Shown here: positions 12,052-51,843 of the stretch, piece by piece
Position numbering within the stretch: position 1 is the first letter of the stretch
How the letters are laid out: every line of letters begins with the position of its first letter
Source: Microthrixaceae bacterium
GTDB taxonomy: Bacteria > Actinomycetota > Acidimicrobiia > Acidimicrobiales > Acidimicrobilacustridaceae
NCBI GenBank assembly: GCA_947449015.1
Contig: CANFQA010000006.1
Span: 1 to 64,000 of the forward strand
DNA: 64,000 bases
Direction of reading: 5' to 3'
The notes under the pieces: model-generated
What the model was told of the DNA's origin: nothing
What the model saw: the letters and a program-made list of their open reading frames with translations, nothing else
Databases searched by the model: none
Program-made: the position numbers and the translations under genes

Positions 12052-14418
12052 TCAGCCCCGCAGGTTGGCCCCCAGCGTTGCAGCGGCCGCCACTGCCGCC
12101 GCGAGCACCCCGGCAACGTCATCATCGGTCAGGGTTCGCTCGGGCGACTGAAGACGCAGACGGTAGGCCAGCGAGCGGGAACCATCGGGGACGGTGCCTC
12201 CTCGGAACACATCGAACAGGTCGATGGCCACCAGAACCGAACCGGCGCTCGAGCGCAGCACATCGGTAAGCGAGGCCGCCGAGACGTTGTCAGGAGTTTC
12301 GAACGCGAGATCAAGGTCACTTGATGGATAGCGACTGATCGATCGGTACCGATGTTCACCATGGGGAAACGAAAGCAGTGCAGCAATATCGAGTTGCAAC
12401 CAGGCACTGCGCTCACGCACTCCGAACGCCTCAAGAACGAAGGGATCAATCTCGCCGACCTCGCCCACGAGGACTCCGTCAATGAGCAACTGCGCGCAGC
12501 GACCGGGATGAAGTCCCGGCGGAGCCGTCTGCTGATCAACCGTTATGGCCGGCAGACCAAGTGTCTGTTCGATCGCTGCGAGAACTTCGACTGCTGCAGG
12601 CGCCGAGTTGCCAGCGAGGATGACCGCGAGGTGTTCGCGCTCATCAGGCAGCGTTGCGCCGACACCGGGAAGACCGAACACACGGCCGAGTTCGAACAGC
12701 AACGCACCTTCGGTGCGATGCGACTCGTTGTAGGCGATGGCGCGAAGCAGTCCCGGGCGCAGCGAGGTGCGCAGAACGCTCTCCTCGGCAGCCAGTGGAT
12801 TGGTGAGTGTGACTGCCTCCGCGGGCAGGCCGGCACGAGCGAGATCACCTGGTGCCAAAAATGGCAGCGGCATTGCCTCATGAATACCAAGACCAACCAG
12901 AACCTGCCGCAACACCCGTCGATCACGCTGCAAGGGCGTGAGCGATCCCGTCTGGGTCGAGGTGGGAACCCGGTTGGCGATGCGGCTGTAGCCGTGGTGA
13001 CGGGCAATCTCTTCGATGATGTCGGTCTCGGTGGTGGTGTCGAGTCGGAACGATGGCACGGTGACGGACCACTCCCCCACCTGTCCGGCTGGCTCGACCA
13101 GAAACCCAATTGGCCGTAACAGCGATGCGATGTCCTCGGCGGCGAGTTCAGTTCCGAGCAGACGATTCACCCGACTGGTTCGAACGGTAACTGGTGATCG
13201 ATCAGGAAGCTGACCGTCGACAGTGACCGCTCCTTCAACCAAGCGCGCTCCCGATGGCGCCAGCAGCTCTGCGAGGCGACGTGCAGCAAGATCGAGAATC
13301 GCAAGATCCGTGCCCCGCTCGAAGCGGGCTGAGGCCTCAGAACGAAGCCCCATGAACTTGGAACTGCGAGCAATCGCCATCGGCTGCCACCATGCGCACT
13401 CAAGAAGAACAGTGGTCGTCGAGGCAGAAATTTCAGTAGAGGCTCCACCCATGACTCCGGCGATTCCGACCGGGACATCCTCAGCATTGGCGATGACGCC
13501 ATCGCGACCAGCGGTGAGGGTGCGTTCGGTTCCATCGAGCGTGGTGATCAACTCGCCATCGCGTGCCCAACGAACCTGCAAGGCGCCGCCAGGAAGGCTG
13601 GCGAGGTCGTAAGTGTGGTTGGGAACTCCGAGTTCCAACATGACGTAGTTGGATGCGTCGACCACATTGTTGATCGGACGCATTCCGAGTGCTGTGAGAC
13701 GGTCGGCAATGAATCGGGGCGACGGTTGGATGCTGATGCCTTCGATGACCCGTGCATGGAACCGACCACAAAGGTCGGGGTCACCGATGGCGACCGAAAT
13801 CCTCGACGGGGCATCACCGGCGATGACCTCGACGTTGGGCTCGGCAATAGCGAACGGCAATCCCAGCCGCGCAGCAAGATCGCGGGCAACGCCAGCAACC
13901 GACATGGCATCGGGTCGATTCGGGTTGATCTCAAGGTCGAAAAGAACATCCGGCACAATGCCCAACGCGTCGACGATGGCCGTGCCGAGGGCGAGCGATC
14001 CATCAAGCAACAGGATGCCCGAGTGATCGTCGCCAAGGCCAAGTTCGCGACCAGAACAAAGCATGCCGTTGGACCATTCGCCACGCATCTTGCGACGGGC
14101 GATCTCCATGCCGTCGGGCATTGTGGTTCCGAGCGTGGCCAGCGGCACGGTGTCGCCGACGCTGAGGTTGGTGGCACCACAGCAGATCTGCAGCGGCTCA
14201 CCATTGCCAGTGTCGACATCGACAAGTTGGATCTTGTCGGCGTCAGGATGACGACGCAGTTCAAGAACCTTGGCCACGATGATTCCGTCGAGCCCTTGTC
14301 CAATGTGCTCGATGGACTCCACGGCCATGCCGAGATCGCTCATGACATCGCCAAGCGCCACGGGATCATCACTGGGGAATGGCGCGAACTCCTGCAACCA
14401 CGAGAGAAGAACCTTCAT
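12052..14418 (-). CDS. pheT: Phenylalanyl-tRNA synthetase beta subunit
   Basis: Large subunit of the heterotetrameric class II PheRS. In order: an N-terminal EMAP-type tRNA-binding domain (about 40-150, with HPDADKIQLVDVD and NGMLCSGRELGL), the B3/B4 editing region, the B5 domain, the catalytic-like core and a C-terminal ferredoxin-fold anticodon-binding domain beginning near YRSISRYPSSDLDLAF. The length of 788 residues is normal. Its ATG overlaps the pheS stop by 4 bases, and argC promoter sequences begin just after its end. Confidence 0.96.
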   Translation of the reverse strand: MKVLLSWLQEFAPFPSDDPVALGDVMSDLGMAVESIEHIGQGLDGIIVAKVLELRRHPDADKIQLVDVDTGNGEPLQICCGATNLSVGDTVPLATLGTTMPDGMEIARRKMRGEWSNGMLCSGRELGLGDDHSGILLLDGSLALGTAIVDALGIVPDVLFDLEINPNRPDAMSVAGVARDLAARLGLPFAIAEPNVEVIAGDAPSRISVAIGDPDLCGRFHARVIEGISIQPSPRFIADRLTALGMRPINNVVDASNYVMLELGVPNHTYDLASLPGGALQVRWARDGELITTLDGTERTLTAGRDGVIANAEDVPVGIAGVMGGASTEISASTTTVLLECAWWQPMAIARSSKFMGLRSEASARFERGTDLAILDLAARRLAELLAPSGARLVEGAVTVDGQLPDRSPVTVRTSRVNRLLGTELAAEDIASLLRPIGFLVEPAGQVGEWSVTVPSFRLDTTTETDIIEEIARHHGYSRIANRVPTSTQTGSLTPLQRDRRVLRQVLVGLGIHEAMPLPFLAPGDLARAGLPAEAVTLTNPLAAEESVLRTSLRPGLLRAIAYNESHRTEGALLFELGRVFGLPGVGATLPDEREHLAVILAGNSAPAAVEVLAAIEQTLGLPAITVDQQTAPPGLHPGRCAQLLIDGVLVGEVGEIDPFVLEAFGVRERSAWLQLDIAALLSFPHGEHRYRSISRYPSSDLDLAFETPDNVSAASLTDVLRSSAGSVLVAIDLFDVFRGGTVPDGSRSLAYRLRLQSPERTLTDDDVAGVLAAAVAAAATLGANLRG

Positions 14419-15452
14419 GACGGGAACTGCTCCAGGAATCGGAGGTCGCCGGTGTACATCTCACGGATGTCATCGACGCCGTGGCGCATGAGCGCAAGGC
14501 GATCGAGGCCAAACCCAAAGGCGAAACCGGTCCACTCTTCGCCGTCGAGCCCCACATTGCGCAGAACATTGGGATGAACCATTCCGCATCCACCCAATTC
14601 GAGCCATCCGGTCTGCGAACAGGTTCGGCAACCCTTGCCCTCGCAGAACACGCAGTTGATGTCGTACTCAGCCGAAGGCTCGGTGAACGGGAAGTAGGAC
14701 GGCCGAAGTCGTGAATGAATGGATCCACCGAAGTAGGCGCTGGTGAAGGACTCGAGGGTGCCCGCCATATCAGCGAACGAGATCGCGCGGTCGATGACCA
14801 ATCCCTCAATCTGATGGAACACCGGCATGTGGGTGGCGTCCGCGGTGTCACGTCGGTACACCCGACCTGGCATGACGGCATAGATCGGAGGTGGAGTTTC
14901 GGTCATTACCCGGATCTGCACCGGCGAGGTATGGGTGCGCAGCAGCACAGTTTCAGGGTCGCCCAGATCGACATACAACGTGTCCCACATGCCGCGGGCA
15001 GGGTGGGCGGCTGGAATGTTGAGCGCCTCGAAGTTGTACCAGTCAGTCTCCACCTCGGGCCCTTCGGCAACCGTGAACCCCATGCCGACGAACACATCGA
15101 CAAGTCGATCCCAAGTCTGGGTGACGAGATGTGTGGTTCCCCGGGGGCGACTGGTGGTGATCTCGGTCAGATCGAGTCGCTCGGCGGCGATGGTGGCTGC
15201 CCGCTCCACCGATTCAAGTTCGAGACGACGCGTCTCTATGACCTGCTCGATGCTGGCACGAGCCACGTTGAGGGCAGCACCGACCTCGCGACGCCCGTCA
15301 GCGTCAAGCGCGCCAAGCCCTTTTTTCAGCTCGGTCAACGACCCCCGCTTACCCAGGAGGTCGGATTCGACGCCACGAAGTTGGTCGATCGTGGTCGCGG
15401 CGAGCACCAATGCCGGCGCTGCATCGCTAATTCGCGTGATGTCATCGATCAT
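14415..15452 (-). CDS. pheS: Phenylalanyl-tRNA synthetase alpha subunit
   Basis: Catalytic subunit of PheRS. An N-terminal coiled coil (about 10-90) is followed by the class II core: motif 2 around YRRDTADATHMPVFHQIEG and motif 3 around GFGLDRLALMRHG. I use the ATG at 15452 (MIDDITRISD, 345 residues). A TTG 13 codons upstream is possible but adds unconserved sequence. A four-cysteine cluster near 'CVFCEGKGCRTC' is present, as in many PheS proteins. It is 51 bases downstream of the methyltransferase gene. Confidence 0.95.
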   Translation of the reverse strand: MIDDITRISDAAPALVLAATTIDQLRGVESDLLGKRGSLTELKKGLGALDADGRREVGAALNVARASIEQVIETRRLELESVERAATIAAERLDLTEITTSRPRGTTHLVTQTWDRLVDVFVGMGFTVAEGPEVETDWYNFEALNIPAAHPARGMWDTLYVDLGDPETVLLRTHTSPVQIRVMTETPPPIYAVMPGRVYRRDTADATHMPVFHQIEGLVIDRAISFADMAGTLESFTSAYFGGSIHSRLRPSYFPFTEPSAEYDINCVFCEGKGCRTCSQTGWLELGGCGMVHPNVLRNVGLDGEEWTGFAFGFGLDRLALMRHGVDDIREMYTGDLRFLEQFPS

Positions 15453-15503
15453 GAGGTGGTGAGCCTGTCTCCCATGGACTGCTGCGTCCAATTCAATTCT
15501 GCG

Positions 15504-16340
15504 TCATAGCGCGCGTCGTTGACGGGACGCTTCGAACAGCACCACCGCGCCAGCGACCGCAGCATTGAGCGATTCAACCGATGTGGCAAGCGGGATCGTG
15601 AGGCTGAGGTCACTACTCGCCACGATTTCGGATGAAAGACCATGGGCTTCTGAGCCGATAAGAACAGCAATGGGTCCGGTGAGGTCGAGAACCTCAGGTG
15701 CCGCTCCATGCCCAGCCACCGTTGCAATGATCGATCGCCCGGAACTGCGCAACTCTGCGAGACACGCGTCGACGTCGGTGACCTCGGCAACAGGCAGCCG
15801 CACTAACGAACCTGCCGCCGCCCGCACAGCTTTGGGGCCGAATGCATCGGTCGAGGAACCAGCGAATACAACGCCAGCCGCCCCGGCCGCTTCCGCCGCC
15901 CGCACCAAGGTGCCGGCATTGCCCGGATCAGCAAGATCGATCAACACCAGCACCGGCCCTTCAGCAGCGGCAACCTCCGAAACTGTCCGGGTGCGGCGCG
16001 GAGCAACAGCCACCAATCCCTGGGGAGTGACCGTGTCGCTGACCGACTCGAGCACACCGTCGGCAAGCGCCCACACCGAAGCGCCACCGGCGGCGGCGAG
16101 ATCGACAGTACGCACGAGAGGGTCATCGTCACCCGATCGAGTAAAGGCATCGGCCCAGGTGCGGGCGTCGACATACAGCTCATCGACAACCAGCCCTCCG
16201 GCCAGCGCCTCGGCGAGGGCCACCGGACCTTCGATCACGAACTGACCCGCCTCAAGACGCGCCTTACGGCGCCCGGTGAGGCGCCGTAAGGCAGCAAGTC
16301 GTGGATTGTTCGCCGAGAGCGGCGTGGGTTCGACGGCCAC
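15504..16340 (-). CDS. SpoU/TrmH-family RNA 2'-O-methyltransferase (TsnR/RlmB type)
   Basis: SAM-dependent ribose methyltransferase of the SPOUT superfamily, probably acting on rRNA. An N-terminal L30e-like substrate-binding domain (RRKARLEAGQFVIEG, about 20-35) is followed by the knotted SpoU domain: LIDLADPGNAGTLVRAAEAAG, then VLIGSEAHGLS and the C-terminal IPLATSVESLNAAVA. I place the start at GTG 16340 (278 residues), 23 bases after rplT ends; the frame stays open into rplT. In mycobacteria the same slot between rplT and pheS carries tsnR. A perfect 13-bp inverted repeat lies in the first 30 codons. Confidence 0.88.
   Translation of the reverse strand: MAVEPTPLSANNPRLAALRRLTGRRKARLEAGQFVIEGPVALAEALAGGLVVDELYVDARTWADAFTRSGDDDPLVRTVDLAAAGGASVWALADGVLESVSDTVTPQGLVAVAPRRTRTVSEVAAAEGPVLVLIDLADPGNAGTLVRAAEAAGAAGVVFAGSSTDAFGPKAVRAAAGSLVRLPVAEVTDVDACLAELRSSGRSIIATVAGHGAAPEVLDLTGPIAVLIGSEAHGLSSEIVASSDLSLTIPLATSVESLNAAVAGAVVLFEASRQRRAL
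16261..16292. repeat. Perfect 13-bp inverted repeat inside the methyltransferase gene
   Basis: Arms at 16261-16273 and 16280-16292 (GCCTTACGGCGCC/GGCGCCGTAAGGC) with a 6-base loop. In the mRNA it gives a very strong hairpin about 48-80 bases after the proposed start codon. No U-tract follows, so it is not an intrinsic terminator. It could be an RNase III site, a decay barrier protecting the upstream infC-rpmI-rplT mRNA, or a translational control element. Confidence 0.8.
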
Positions 16341-16362
16341 CGAAGTGGTCGGAAGCCGTGGA

Positions 16363-16725
16363 TCAGGCGCTGGCCGATGCAGCGTTGGCCGCTTCGACAA
16401 GTGCCGTGAACGCTGCCGGGTCGGTGATGGCGAGATCGGAGAGGACCTTGCGGTCAACTTCGATGCCAGCATCCTTCAGGCCGGCGATGAACCGGGAATA
16501 CGTGGTGCCGTTGAGACGGCAAGCCGCGTTGATCCGCTGGATCCAAAGCTGACGGAACTCGCCCTTCTTGGCGCGACGGTCGCGGAACGCGTAGTTGAGC
16601 GAGTGCATGACCTGCTCATTGGCGGAGCGATACGAGCGGCTCTTGTTGCCGTAGTAGCCCTTGGCTCGCTCGAGTGTTGCTTTGTGGCGCTTCTTGGCGG
16701 TGACTGCACCTTTGACTCTGGCCAT
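16363..16725 (-). CDS. rplT: 50S ribosomal protein L20
   Basis: Early-assembly 23S rRNA-binding protein. It opens with [19 protein letters not shown] and contains the conserved core [19 protein letters not shown]. It is 120 residues long, the family length, with a short Ala/Ser tail. AAGGAG is placed 6 bases before the ATG. It follows rpmI after 82 bases and is the last gene of the infC-rpmI-rplT operon, which is autoregulated by L20 in other bacteria. Confidence 0.98.
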
Positions 16726-16807
16726 CGGTGTCTCCTTCCAGACGTTGGATCAATTCGATCCAGTGGGGTACGTGTGATCGGTGGCCGATGTGGTCGGCCG
16801 AGGTAAA

Positions 16808-17002
16808 TCAGATGCCGAGTTGGCGCTTGACGCGGGCGGCGTCGCCCTTGGCGAGCACGAAATCACCCTTGAGACGGCGCTTGCGTCCCGGGGACTTCTT
16901 CTCGAGGATGTGATTGAGGTTCGCGGAACGACGGGTCAACTTGCCCGTTCCTGTCACCTTGAAGCGCTTCTTGGCGCCACTGTGGGTCTTCATCTTCGGC
17001 AT
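16808..17002 (-). CDS. rpmI: 50S ribosomal protein L35
   Basis: Small basic ribosomal protein of 64 residues. The family signature [20 protein letters not shown] opens the protein. GGAG lies 7 bases before the ATG. It sits between infC and rplT in the universal order. Confidence 0.98.
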
Positions 17003-17045
17003 GGTGGTCTCCAGTGTGGATGCTCGCCGGGGCGAGTCCTGTGGT

Positions 17046-17783
17046 TCAGACTTCGGGTGAAGCCTCGGTTGTGTCTGTCGCTTCGATCGGTGCTGCGTCG
17101 ATCTGGGCGTCTTCGGGGGCTGCTACGTCAGTATCGGTGACCGCTACAGACGCTGCGGGCACTTCAGGTGCATCAGGTGCTTCGGCGAGGGATTCGTTCG
17201 ACGAAGGAGCAACGGCATCAGGCGTGGTCCGCTTCTTCTCTGCGGCGGCCTGGGCCTTCTTGTCGGGTCCAAGCACCATGGTCATGTTGCGACCATCGAG
17301 CCGGGGGTAGACCTCGACTTTGCCCACCTCGGTGACAGTTTCGGCAACCTGATCGAGGATCTTGCGTCCCAGTTCCGGATGCTGCATCTCACGGCCCCGG
17401 AACATGATGGTGATCTTCACCTTGTGGCCCTCGCCAAGAAACTCGGCGACTTTTTTGGTCTTGGTTCCGAAGTCGCCAGCGCCAATCTTGGGCCGGTACT
17501 TCATTTCCTTGACCACCACATTGGTGCTCTTCTTACGGGACTCCTTGGCTCGCTGCGCGGCCTCGTACTTGTACTTGCCGTAATCCATGATTCGGCAGAC
17601 CGGAGGGTTGGCTTTGTCGGCCACCTCCACGAGGTCGAGTTCGAGTTCCCTGGCCATTTCAAGGGCTTGGGACAAGGGTGTGATTCCGATCTGGGCGCCA
17701 TCGGCTCCGACCAACCGCACCTCGCGGGCGCGGATGCGATCGTTGATCCGTGGCTCGTCATTCGTGGCCGTTGCTATGGCCAA
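17046..17783 (-). CDS. infC: Translation initiation factor IF-3
   Basis: Binds the 30S subunit, checks start-codon selection and prevents subunit joining. The N-domain contains [16 protein letters not shown] and [25 protein letters not shown]; the C-domain contains [18 protein letters not shown] and [11 protein letters not shown]. An Ala/Glu/Asp-rich tail of about 65 residues follows the C-domain. The start codon is not canonical. TTG 17783 is used here but is only 3 bases after GAGGAG; an in-frame ATA at 17777 is 9 bases after it and could be the real start, in line with the rare start codons that let IF-3 control its own synthesis. Confidence 0.96.
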
Positions 17784-17794
17784 TCACTCCTCAT
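17774..17794 (-). CDS. Possible six-codon upstream ORF overlapping the infC start
   Basis: ATG at 17794 opens a frame of six codons (M-R-S-D-W-P) ending in TAG at 17774-17776. The stop overlaps the candidate ATA start of infC, and the infC Shine-Dalgarno sequence lies inside it. It may be chance, or it may couple or block infC initiation. Confidence 0.25.
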   Translation of the reverse strand: MRSDWP

Positions 17795-17957
17795 TCGTGC
17801 GAGTTCCTCTCTCGGCTGTTCGGGTGGGCAGTTGAAGCCGACGGACGAACGGCCAGAGCTCCACGAATGGGTCCCGGGTCATTGCTCGAGTCGACCTGAC
17901 GCACAGGCTGCGGGTGCAAGCACTCGCCGGTGGTGGCCAGGTGGGGGCGAACCCCGC

Positions 17958-17985
17958 TTCGGTTCAGTTGTGAGGGGCGTACGAT
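17958..17985 (+). promoter_or_regulatory. Candidate promoter for the DUF1844-like gene
   Basis: TTCGGT (17958-17963), a 16-base spacer and TACGAT (17980-17985) on the plus strand, about 70 bases before the ATG at 18058. A minus-strand -10 (TATCGT, 17981-17986) with TTCGCA 18 bases upstream overlaps it and could drive infC with a leader of about 190 bases. The 274-base divergent gap holds no gene that I can see. Confidence 0.35.
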
Positions 17986-18057
17986 ACCGATCTCGAGCCG
18001 GGAATGCGAACCCTGCCCCGGCGAGCCGGACTGAGACGTCACCTGAGGAGAACCGAA

Positions 18058-26046: not shown

Positions 26047-27284
26047 GACAAGGAGTTTGGCGCGTCAGACGGCCCGGGTACACGCAGACGCAGGATGTAC
26101 ATGCCGTCGGTATCGGCGCTTTGGGGCAGTAGCAACGCCCCACGACCCAGCGGCGTCCAGACACCGCCGGGAGCGGGTAGGGCTTCGATTTCGGGGAACT
26201 GTTCGCCGATCCACATATCAATGTCAAGAGACTCTGCACGAGAGAGCGTGCACACGCTGAAGATGAGTTCACCACCGGGTCGCAGCATCGTGATTGCGGA
26301 TTCGATGAGACGCCGTTGCAGTGCGCCAAGCGCGTCAATATCGCCCGGCGTGATTCGCCAGCGGGCATCGGGGCGCCGCCGAAGCGCACCGAGACCAGAG
26401 CAGGGCGCATCGAGCAGCACCTTGTCGAAGATGCCGGGACGAATCGGCAACGAGGTGCCGTCAGCGACGAGCACCATGAATGAATCAGCACTCAGTTGCA
26501 ATCGGCGCGCGTTTTCAACGACGAGTCCCACTCGGCCTGCACGCACATCAGAAGCCACGACTCTGGCCCCGGCCGCAGCGAGCGCGGTGGCTTTGCCTCC
26601 CGGTGCGGCACACATATCAAGGATGAGATCACCAATATCGACCCCGACAGCCTCGACGATCCATTGGGAACCAAGATCCTGCACGTAGCCGTCTTCACGA
26701 ACGCTCGAGGTGGCTGCTGCATTCATGGCCTCAAGCGCTGCAAGCGCCGTTTCGGACCCGAGGTCCTCCGAGAGACGCTCGATGATCCAATCGGGTTGGC
26801 TGAGTCGCACCGCATCGGAGGGCCAAGTGACGGGCAACGAGGTGGCGACTTTGCGAAGAACTGCATTGCAAAGACCGCTCAGACGACGCGGCGCAGCTTC
26901 GACAGTGGCACCCACCGCGGCATGCGCAGGTGTGGCGAGAAACGCGAGTTGGAATGCACCGATGCGAAGCCATGCCCGTGCAGTGACATCGATGCGTTCC
27001 GGATCAGGAAGGAAACGATCCACCAACCAGTCGCAGGATCGACACATTCGTGTTGTGCCGTAGACCAGCTCGGTGACAAATGCCCGATCGCGTTGATCCA
27101 GCGAGCTGCGCGAGAGCAATGTCGGGAGAATCAAGTTGGCATAGGCCCCTTCGGCATCGATACGCACGAGCGCGTCGACCGCGAGCTGCCGAGCAGCCAC
27201 ACCAGGAGCGGATCGGCCTTTCGGACCGGATGACGCGTCAGTGCGCGGATCGGATCCGCGCTGGGGACGACGTGGTTCGCTCAT
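26043..27284 (-). CDS. rsmB: 16S rRNA m5C methyltransferase, RsmB/Sun family
   Basis: An N-terminal NusB-like RNA-binding domain (about 27-150, with VAARQLAVDALVRID and LCNAVLRKV) is followed by a Rossmann methyltransferase: CAAPGGK at 225-231, Cys295 in DAPCSG, and the second cysteine Cys345 in SVCTLS. The roughly 60-residue segment that normally lies between the two (with a PVTLRVN-type motif) is missing: EAMNAAATSS runs directly into the VQDLGSQW segment. The rest is intact and in frame, so it is probably active or subfamily-specific. It overlaps fmt and moaB by 4 bases. Confidence 0.9.
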   Translation of the reverse strand: MSEPRRPQRGSDPRTDASSGPKGRSAPGVAARQLAVDALVRIDAEGAYANLILPTLLSRSSLDQRDRAFVTELVYGTTRMCRSCDWLVDRFLPDPERIDVTARAWLRIGAFQLAFLATPAHAAVGATVEAAPRRLSGLCNAVLRKVATSLPVTWPSDAVRLSQPDWIIERLSEDLGSETALAALEAMNAAATSSVREDGYVQDLGSQWIVEAVGVDIGDLILDMCAAPGGKATALAAAGARVVASDVRAGRVGLVVENARRLQLSADSFMVLVADGTSLPIRPGIFDKVLLDAPCSGLGALRRRPDARWRITPGDIDALGALQRRLIESAITMLRPGGELIFSVCTLSRAESLDIDMWIGEQFPEIEALPAPGGVWTPLGRGALLLPQSADTDGMYILRLRVPGPSDAPNSLS

Positions 27285-50990: not shown

Positions 50991-51843
50991 CCAGCGATGC
51001 GGAGACCGCTGCAGTCATGGCCTCAATCGGTGCGGCCTGACCGGTCCAGAGCGTGAACGCGATCGCAGCCTGATGGGTGAGCATTGCAACACCATTTGCA
51101 GTTCGCGCCCCGCGGGCCTGCGCGTGGGCCAGCAGCGGCGTGAGCAGAGGTCGGTACACGATGTCGACAACTGTGTGATGGTTACCAATGAGCTCCAGAT
51201 CGAACGGAAACTCAGCGGCTTCGCCATCGGTGGCCGAGGTGCTCATACCCACCGAGGTTGCATTGACGATGAGATCGCTCTCGGCGATCACTGATGCCTC
51301 GGGGCCGCCAGATACCACGAGTGCGACCTCGCCGAACAGCTCCGCGGCCTGTTGCGCGCGTTCCGCTGTTCGATTGATAACTGCAATCTGAGAGGCACCG
51401 CTGCGTGCAAGTGCCAGTCCAATGGAACGCGCCGCGCCGCCTGCGCCAAGCACCACGCAACGACGACCTCGCGGATCGAATCCGAGTTCGGCATCAATTG
51501 CGGCGATGAAACCGTCGCCGTCGGTGTTGTGACCGATGAGGCGGCCGCCATCATTGACCACACAGTTGACGGCACGAAGCGCCGCTGCGTCCGGCGAGAG
51601 TTCATCGCACGCAGCGGCGGCGGCCTCCTTATGCGGCATTGTGACCGAGAGACCGGCGATACCAAGCGTGCGCATTGCTTCGAGCGCTTCGGCAGTGTGG
51701 CCCGCACCAACCTCGAGCGCGACGTAGACCCAGTCGAGGTCAAGTGCTGCGAAGGCGGTGTTATGCAGAAGTGGTGACAGCGAATGACGAACGGGGTCAC
51801 CAATGACTGCAGCGAGCCGTGTGGATCCGGTGGGCTGGCTCAT
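50983..51843 (-). CDS. aroE: Shikimate dehydrogenase
   Basis: NADPH-dependent reduction of 3-dehydroshikimate. Substrate-binding SLSPLLHNTAF (about 17-27) and VTMPHKEAA with the catalytic Lys, then NTDGDGF, and the nucleotide-binding VLGAGGAARSIG. It is 286 residues long. Its start overlaps the mltG stop by one base. Separated from the other aro genes by its own operon. Confidence 0.95.
   Translation of the reverse strand: MSQPTGSTRLAAVIGDPVRHSLSPLLHNTAFAALDLDWVYVALEVGAGHTAEALEAMRTLGIAGLSVTMPHKEAAAAACDELSPDAAALRAVNCVVNDGGRLIGHNTDGDGFIAAIDAELGFDPRGRRCVVLGAGGAARSIGLALARSGASQIAVINRTAERAQQAAELFGEVALVVSGGPEASVIAESDLIVNATSVGMSTSATDGEAAEFPFDLELIGNHHTVVDIVYRPLLTPLLAHAQARGARTANGVAMLTHQAAIAFTLWTGQAAPIEAMTAAVSASLVD

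Follow-up and report, generated by a model that had tools for sequence, protein, structure and literature searches.

In Escherichia coli, messages are protected at their 3' ends by hairpins that follow a stop codon and lack a U-tract. In a Term-seq study (Dar and Sorek 2018, PMC5927463), 17 of 26 such protective hairpins lie within the downstream open reading frame (ORF), 107±56 nt in, and are conserved at wobble positions. Here we describe a 13-bp hairpin of this kind in a 64,000-nt stretch of a Microthrixaceae bacterium (Actinomycetota; positions 1 to 64,000 of contig CANFQA010000006.1, assembly GCA_947449015.1), hereafter the window. It is located early in an rlmP-like rRNA methyltransferase gene, between the translation genes infC-rpmI-rplT and pheS-pheT. 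With the E. coli hairpins it shares pairing without loop constraint, a place after a stop codon, the lack of a U-tract and a position inside the next ORF. On the other hand, it belongs to another phylum, persists in many families through compensatory changes, and lies nearer to the start codon, at nt 49-80 as against 107±56. An RNA-level function of the stem is very likely, and by analogy we give a probability of about one half to the reading that it is an ORF-embedded 3' boundary insulating the infC-rpmI-rplT mRNA from rlmP-pheST.

Stems that separate a stabilised gene from the genes downstream of it are likewise described for malE-malF (PMC5927463) and for the stem-loops of selective RNA processing and stabilization (SRPS). 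The malE-malF hairpin is intergenic, whereas the stem here is single-copy and sits in coding sequence. The former is a dispersed repetitive extragenic palindrome (REP). Streptomyces clavuligerus, likewise a GC-rich actinobacterium, has transcript ends termed HS-U-lack TEPs or I-shaped terminators that share with our stem a GC-rich helix followed within 8 nt by no more than two U (PMC8269248). Those ends, like the E. coli hairpin ends, are mapped, whereas the stem here lies in an ORF and is known from sequence alone. The known sites of L20-dependent control precede infC or rpmI-rplT, unlike the stem here, which follows rplT. That control involves the same ribosomal-protein genes, as in L20 attenuation of the Bacillus subtilis infC operon, which is listed as a reference in PMC3997798. 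The literature on RlmP-type enzymes and their target, binding of enzymes to their own mRNA, coding-region RNA structures, the rplT-pheS and rplT-tsnR junctions, Streptomyces transcript ends, programmed decay, mycobacterial RNA processing and RNA motifs of Acidimicrobiia, scanned mostly at the surface and with subscription journals thinly covered, does not name the element.

The stem comprises 13 pairs with 100% complementary arms (16261-16273 and 16280-16292) set 6 nt apart in a minus-strand gene. As transcribed, the 5' arm GCCUUACGGCGCC (16280..16292, minus strand) carries the codons A-L-R-R-L and the 3' arm GGCGCCGUAAGGC (16261..16273, minus strand) the codons G-R-R-K, the whole region coding for A-L-R-R-L-T-G-R-R-K. 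The six-base loop between them, UCACCG (16274..16279, minus strand), has inner bases that differ between species and an outer U·G able to close a 4-nt loop. The stem begins 70 nt after the end of the rplT stop (16363) on the minus strand and, given a start at the GTG at 16340, covers nt 49-80 of the coding sequence, codons 17-27; this GTG is a putative start, and same-genus loci show an in-frame start at the same distance. The initial annotation, made from the letters of the DNA, had described a perfect 13-bp repeat with a 6-base spacer in coding sequence about 70 bases after rplT, and had held that it is no terminator since a U-tract is missing. Both descriptions stand: the 3' flank GCGCGTCT (16253..16260, minus strand), in which GCGCGT is common among orthologs, lacks a U-tract, GCGCGUCU follows the stem without a T-run, and a terminator scan of 15400-18000 found none and no U-run after the stem. 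The sense RNA of the stem folds at -28.0 kcal/mol, and windows over it are the most stable of 15,989 minus-strand 44-nt windows (step 4) in the 64 kb; the next most stable minus-strand local structures, at 26137-26180 and 51577-51620, are both within long minus-strand ORFs. The left arm includes a TTA, a codon used for just 3 of 197 leucines in the six operon genes. A nested alternative hairpin, GCGCC-GUAA-GGCGC with a GUAA loop, was spotted by eye in the genus, proved not to be general and was dropped. Rfam yields no family at gathering score at the site and, in the window, 16S rRNA only; the best permissive match, to CC1840 (30 bits against a cut-off of 50), seems to reflect a general resemblance among hairpins.

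Could such a stem result from chance, or from the protein code? The window has no longer perfect hairpin, the runner-up having 10 bp, and its 40 order-3 Markov surrogates reach 12 bp at most. Extrapolated surrogate counts give a chance of ~1% per window, and one such stem in a 2.4-Mb genome would be no great surprise; by length alone the stem exceeds chance moderately. In hairpin-bearing loci, defined as those with at least 9 of 10 core pairs, the RRLxGRR motif together with codon usage predicts 6.7 of the 10, because first and second codon positions of R-R-L-x-G-R-R pair automatically. Ten core pairs, given amino acids and codon usage, have p ~0.009 here, which is also the median of 97 sequences (maximum 0.10). 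The early judgement that codon choice alone is unlikely to produce the stem is borne out only to a moderate degree by this one sequence. As the motif predicts so much, the stem of one genome is weak evidence, and the decision falls to cross-species comparison. Core pair numbers in 143 distinct orthologs are bimodal, 89 having 10 of 10, 8 having 9 and 46 having 0-8; the ortholog sets used in the codon, tree and junction tests are enriched for hairpin-bearing loci, as model matches were fetched, so that this ratio is not a prevalence. The 46 low-pair orthologs average 4.85 core pairs against a codon expectation of 4.78, and the mean of 9.92 in hairpin-bearing loci is partly so by construction, one of them (L196) being classed on pair number alone.

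We find that the pairing is maintained by linked changes on both arms. The alignment and covariance model hold 41 distinct cores from 93 distinct orthologs, at a threshold of at least 11 of 13 pairs (48 rows). On the fixed structure 96.1% of the 533 cells in the 41 rows pair, a percentage that this threshold raises by construction. Two-sided changes, partly at synonymous sites, occur at 6 pairs of the 41 rows, a number reached in 5 of 500 shuffles, and covariation amounts to 0.317 versus 0.135±0.012 when shuffled (reached by 0 of 500) and at most 0.106 with the 3' side slid. Linked variants are TTA..TAAG, CTA..TAGG, CTT..AAGG, CTG..CAGG or CAGT, and GTG..CACC, together with synonymous swaps at two arginines from CGG/CGC to CGA/CGT and CGC/CGG. 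In a phylogeny of 156 proteins, 95 of them from hairpin-bearing loci and all stripped of the stem codons, left/right/joint changes number 9/10/11 at pair k=8, 5/7/7 at k=10, 7/12/14 at k=5 and 6/4/6 at k=2. Independent contrasts on the starred branches, summed over these four pairs, give ~10.8 in agreement, 0 in conflict and 3.1 that show no difference, none of the four singly reaching 0.05. Pairs 1-11 (95 rows) show 28 gains of G·U against 4 of A·C, a count with a small bias since G·U was scored as a pair and A·C was not. Given that G·U is favoured over A·C, it is the sense RNA that matters, not the DNA or an antisense RNA. The selection suspected in the initial annotation is borne out by these compensatory sense-strand changes, which keep the pairing in 14 family groups. 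Likewise, the comparison of synonymous sites across homologs that it had proposed places the peak of the rlmP-like gene over the stem: conservation is highest in 9-codon windows there, and the top nine of 261 windows in the genus (17 loci) and of 241 in the family (26 loci) start at codons 15-23. A small CGCCG-CTCT-CGGCG hairpin and a second peak of synonymous conservation (genus, family) are seen in rlmP codons 1-10 (16300-16340, minus strand). Loop and flanking sequence differ between loci, as does the spacing from the rplT stop (27-132 nt); the codon register is constant, for which the protein motif may be the cause.

How widely is the stem distributed? By model score it is present in 19 of 21 same-genus genomes, while in the remaining two a contig end interrupts the gene. 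No same-genus ortholog that extends to the site is without the stem, and the absence from close relatives that would have spoken against it is not found. Searched against 61 relatives, the covariance model matches 42 at E<=0.001, and 39 of these, the genome of the window included, have a match above 41 bits, one each. With this and the single match of the stem sequence in its own genome, a dispersed palindromic repeat (REP, bacterial interspersed mosaic element or miniature inverted-repeat transposable element) is excluded. Across 397 sampled genomes of the order, 92 match at E<=0.001 and 73 at 40 bits or more; 72 of these 73, including one with two core mismatches (G066), sit at homologous rlmP codons, in 14 family codes. 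The other one (G110, 41.3 bits) is outside rlmP, adjoining an ORF that we take to be nth-like, and 40 bits is therefore an imperfect threshold. In a phylum-level sample of 396 genomes, which also contains members of the order, matches from outside the order stay at or below 34.6 bits. Ten of 183 loci were left unanchored: L020, L023 and L100, in which the gene is truncated or its start unalignable, and seven model matches (27-41 bits) that lie where no rlmP match exists; of these seven, L166 was inspected. Named relatives that bear the stem include Microthrixaceae, Candidatus Microthrix and Ilumatobacteraceae metagenome-assembled genomes (MAGs). Two loci of genus code g2, L184 (G021) and L025 (G032), differ, one genome having the stem and the other not. 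Four loci (L035, L036, L042 and L066) are labelled Bifidobacterium breve; the first three have an rlmP like that of the window genus, and the stem, and the labels look wrong.

In the boundary model that we favour, the hairpin would act in cis as an RNase-resistant 3' boundary. Once the downstream part of the message (rlmP-pheS-pheT) is cleaved or incompletely made, 3'-5' exonucleases would halt at the stem, the infC-rpmI-rplT part would outlive the remainder, and ribosomal-protein output would thereby be uncoupled from the output of methyltransferase and tRNA synthetase. Lying 70 nt past the rplT stop, the stem would be far enough away to escape opening by terminating ribosomes. It probably arose within the R-R-L-x-G-R-R codons, because these are already almost self-complementary. 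The initial annotation had offered four roles, namely an RNase III cut, stabilisation of the infC-rpmI-rplT mRNA, restricted translation and binding by the encoded methyltransferase; stabilisation appears to fit best, a hairpin after rplT recurring across lineages. Several observations weigh against the boundary model. No match of at least 40 bits is present in 324 of the 397 order genomes, under strict filters that lose weak matches, and the stem trait changes 24 times on the tree, so that, by these genome counts, the stem is dispensable or replaceable. The outermost pairs, k=11 and 12, have no convincing linkage on the tree, and the exact codon register is not needed by a pure 3'-boundary element. 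Moreover, 87 of 106 stemless loci are without another perfect stem of at least 10 pairs at the junction, and in 8 of 79 hairpin-bearing loci the best junction stem is followed by 4-5 T in 8 nt.

The other 19 of the 106 loci without the standard stem do have a different perfect stem, of at least 10 pairs and no more than 250 nt from the rplT stop, a number that includes related rows and thus represents fewer independent cases. Control stretches have fewer such stems: 4 of 93 loci bear one after rlmP (Fisher p=0.003), 1 of 74 upstream of rplT (p=0.0002), 3 of 106 inside rplT, and 0 of 106 (p=2e-6) and 3 of 106 (p=0.0005) in two later stretches. At 58 loci without the standard stem the junction is more strongly folded than its shuffles, by -4.1 kcal/mol, compared with -0.5 in a control region, the shuffles preserving dinucleotides and not codons. 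The 57 loci classed as noncanonical include some from outside the order, and the phylum sample of 49 loci includes four order members (L208, L209, L211 and L212). The substitute stems occupy non-homologous places. The stem AAGGCCCGCTC..GAGCGGGCCTT, 27 nt further in, is found at L044, L048 and L057, as well as at L047 (beside another stem) and L055 (with one G·U), while L087 and L220 have substitutes of 13 and 17 bp. At L211 (G161), where the standard stem is missing, a 15-bp perfect hairpin lies 34-67 nt after the rplT stop and is apparently intergenic; other genomes of its family (f7) carry the standard stem. Repeated GTGTTTCG-like units follow the L211 hairpin. In an Actinophytocola MAG (L105) an 18-pair hairpin, 17 of its pairs Watson-Crick, lies 14 nt after the rplT stop, between rplT and rlmP. 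For 18 of the 19 substitute stems the next 8 nt hold at most 3 T. Hairpins at L211, L240, L244, L255 and L259 precede the rlmP start inferred from alignment; this favours rplT over early rlmP as the shared factor, and we infer that rplT is the stabilised gene. Tentatively, new U-poor hairpins may arise repeatedly at this junction and shift between intergenic space and the ORF as lineages diverge, if the whole phylum needs to keep rplT apart from rlmP-pheST.

Could the stem instead act on translation? Ribosomes stopped ~8-12 codons into rlmP would leave a paused ribosome covering the start, and the methyltransferase would be kept scarce despite the ribosomal-protein gene upstream. Where a usual start codon exists, the stem mostly begins 37-49 nt after it, and many relatives have no usual start and a CTG over the rplT stop, as if low output were favoured. 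Yet N-terminal length is also conserved for protein reasons, several stemless orthologs are similarly spaced, and the hairpins ahead of the inferred rlmP start in other lineages do not fit; we consider such a throttle unlikely. Cutting of the stem by RNase III or another double-strand-specific endonuclease, which would part the rplT and rlmP-pheST messages, agrees with a single copy at the operon joint and with constrained pairing next to a free loop and free variable pairs, as expected for a double-strand enzyme. A helix of 13-15 bp is, however, short for an efficient RNase III substrate, and we regard this cut as distinctly doubtful. Intrinsic termination without a U-run is itself contested. 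A terminator or attenuator of the U-less, I-shaped kind, by which read-through into rlmP-pheST would be reduced, would suit a strong GC hairpin after a ribosomal-protein gene, and 353 of 1,427 mapped Streptomyces ends are structured and U-lacking (PMC8269248); with no U-run here, and with rlmP ribosomes that would counter termination, it is nonetheless improbable.

The location of the hairpin in the early ORF of the methyltransferase itself raises the idea that the enzyme binds its own mRNA, the stem standing in for the 23S rRNA target, and represses its synthesis. The proposal of the initial annotation that the encoded enzyme binds the stem fares poorly, since the bases of the loop and the variable pairs of the stem can be exchanged and no sequence-specificity is kept beyond the constraint of the protein code. 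The A-loop string CUGUUCG occurs in the loop of just 1 of 41 rows (L029), a 59-mer of H90-H92 served as substrate for the relative RlmR, and other lineages have unlike hairpins; self-binding is thus very improbable. The assembly itself contains no 23S rRNA match with which the hairpin could be compared for mimicry. That the stem has no RNA function, being a by-product of arginine-rich, GC-rich codons or a protein-bound DNA palindrome, is scarcely tenable: the motif-predicted core pairs and the palindromic DNA would allow it, and against it stand the 97 of 143 distinct sequences with 9-10 of 10 core pairs, the remainder being near codon expectation, the covariation, and the preference for G·U over A·C, which speaks against action at the DNA level.

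The minus-strand order of the operon is infC-rpmI-rplT-(rlmP-like)-pheS-pheT. It comprises infC (IF3; 17046..17783, start approximate), rpmI (L35; 16808..17002), rplT (L20; 16363..16725), the 3' part of whose mRNA would be bounded by the hairpin, the rlmP-like gene of the SpoU/TrmH family of rRNA 2'-O-methyltransferases (15504..16340, from the putative GTG), and downstream pheS (14415..15491, start approximate) and pheT (12052..14418). In the host protein the MRM3-like substrate-binding domain (PF22435) and the SpoU domain (PF00588) were found, and the best solved match of its profile is 7qiu (1.6e-53), which PMC12123411 tabulates as the RlmP of B. subtilis, with Gm2553 in the A-loop of 23S rRNA. 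By these matches the host gene is an RlmP/MRM3-type SPOUT methyltransferase gene, which we name rlmP-like, its target base being a prediction only. At L054, L058, L065, L067, L068, L073 and L080, as well as L113, L115, L116, L122 and others, the rlmP frame has a CTG over the rplT TGA (CTGA), and these loci have no ATG, GTG or TTG from the rplT stop to the stem. A CTG over the rplT stop is also found in the stemless orthologs L084, L097, L185, L192 and L193. The CTGA overlap suggests that rlmP may start at CTG, coupled to rplT termination. A programmed -1 frameshift from rplT into rlmP was considered for the many lineages with rlmP in that frame and CTG over the stop; it was rejected, as the phase differs among hairpin-bearing loci (50, 16 and 32 of 98 in the three phases) and the stem is at least 27 nt away.

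We find, then, an RNA structure that is kept by compensation across many families inside an ORF of a translation operon, at a place where the protein code itself favours a stem. If the boundary model is true, programmed operon decay, which has been mapped in enterobacteria, would extend to little-cultured Actinomycetota, with predictions that can be read from sequence as presence, loss and relocation of the hairpin. And if hairpins do arise repeatedly after rplT, the rplT-rlmP junction would present, across lineages, a natural set of mRNA boundary elements that each evolved independently.
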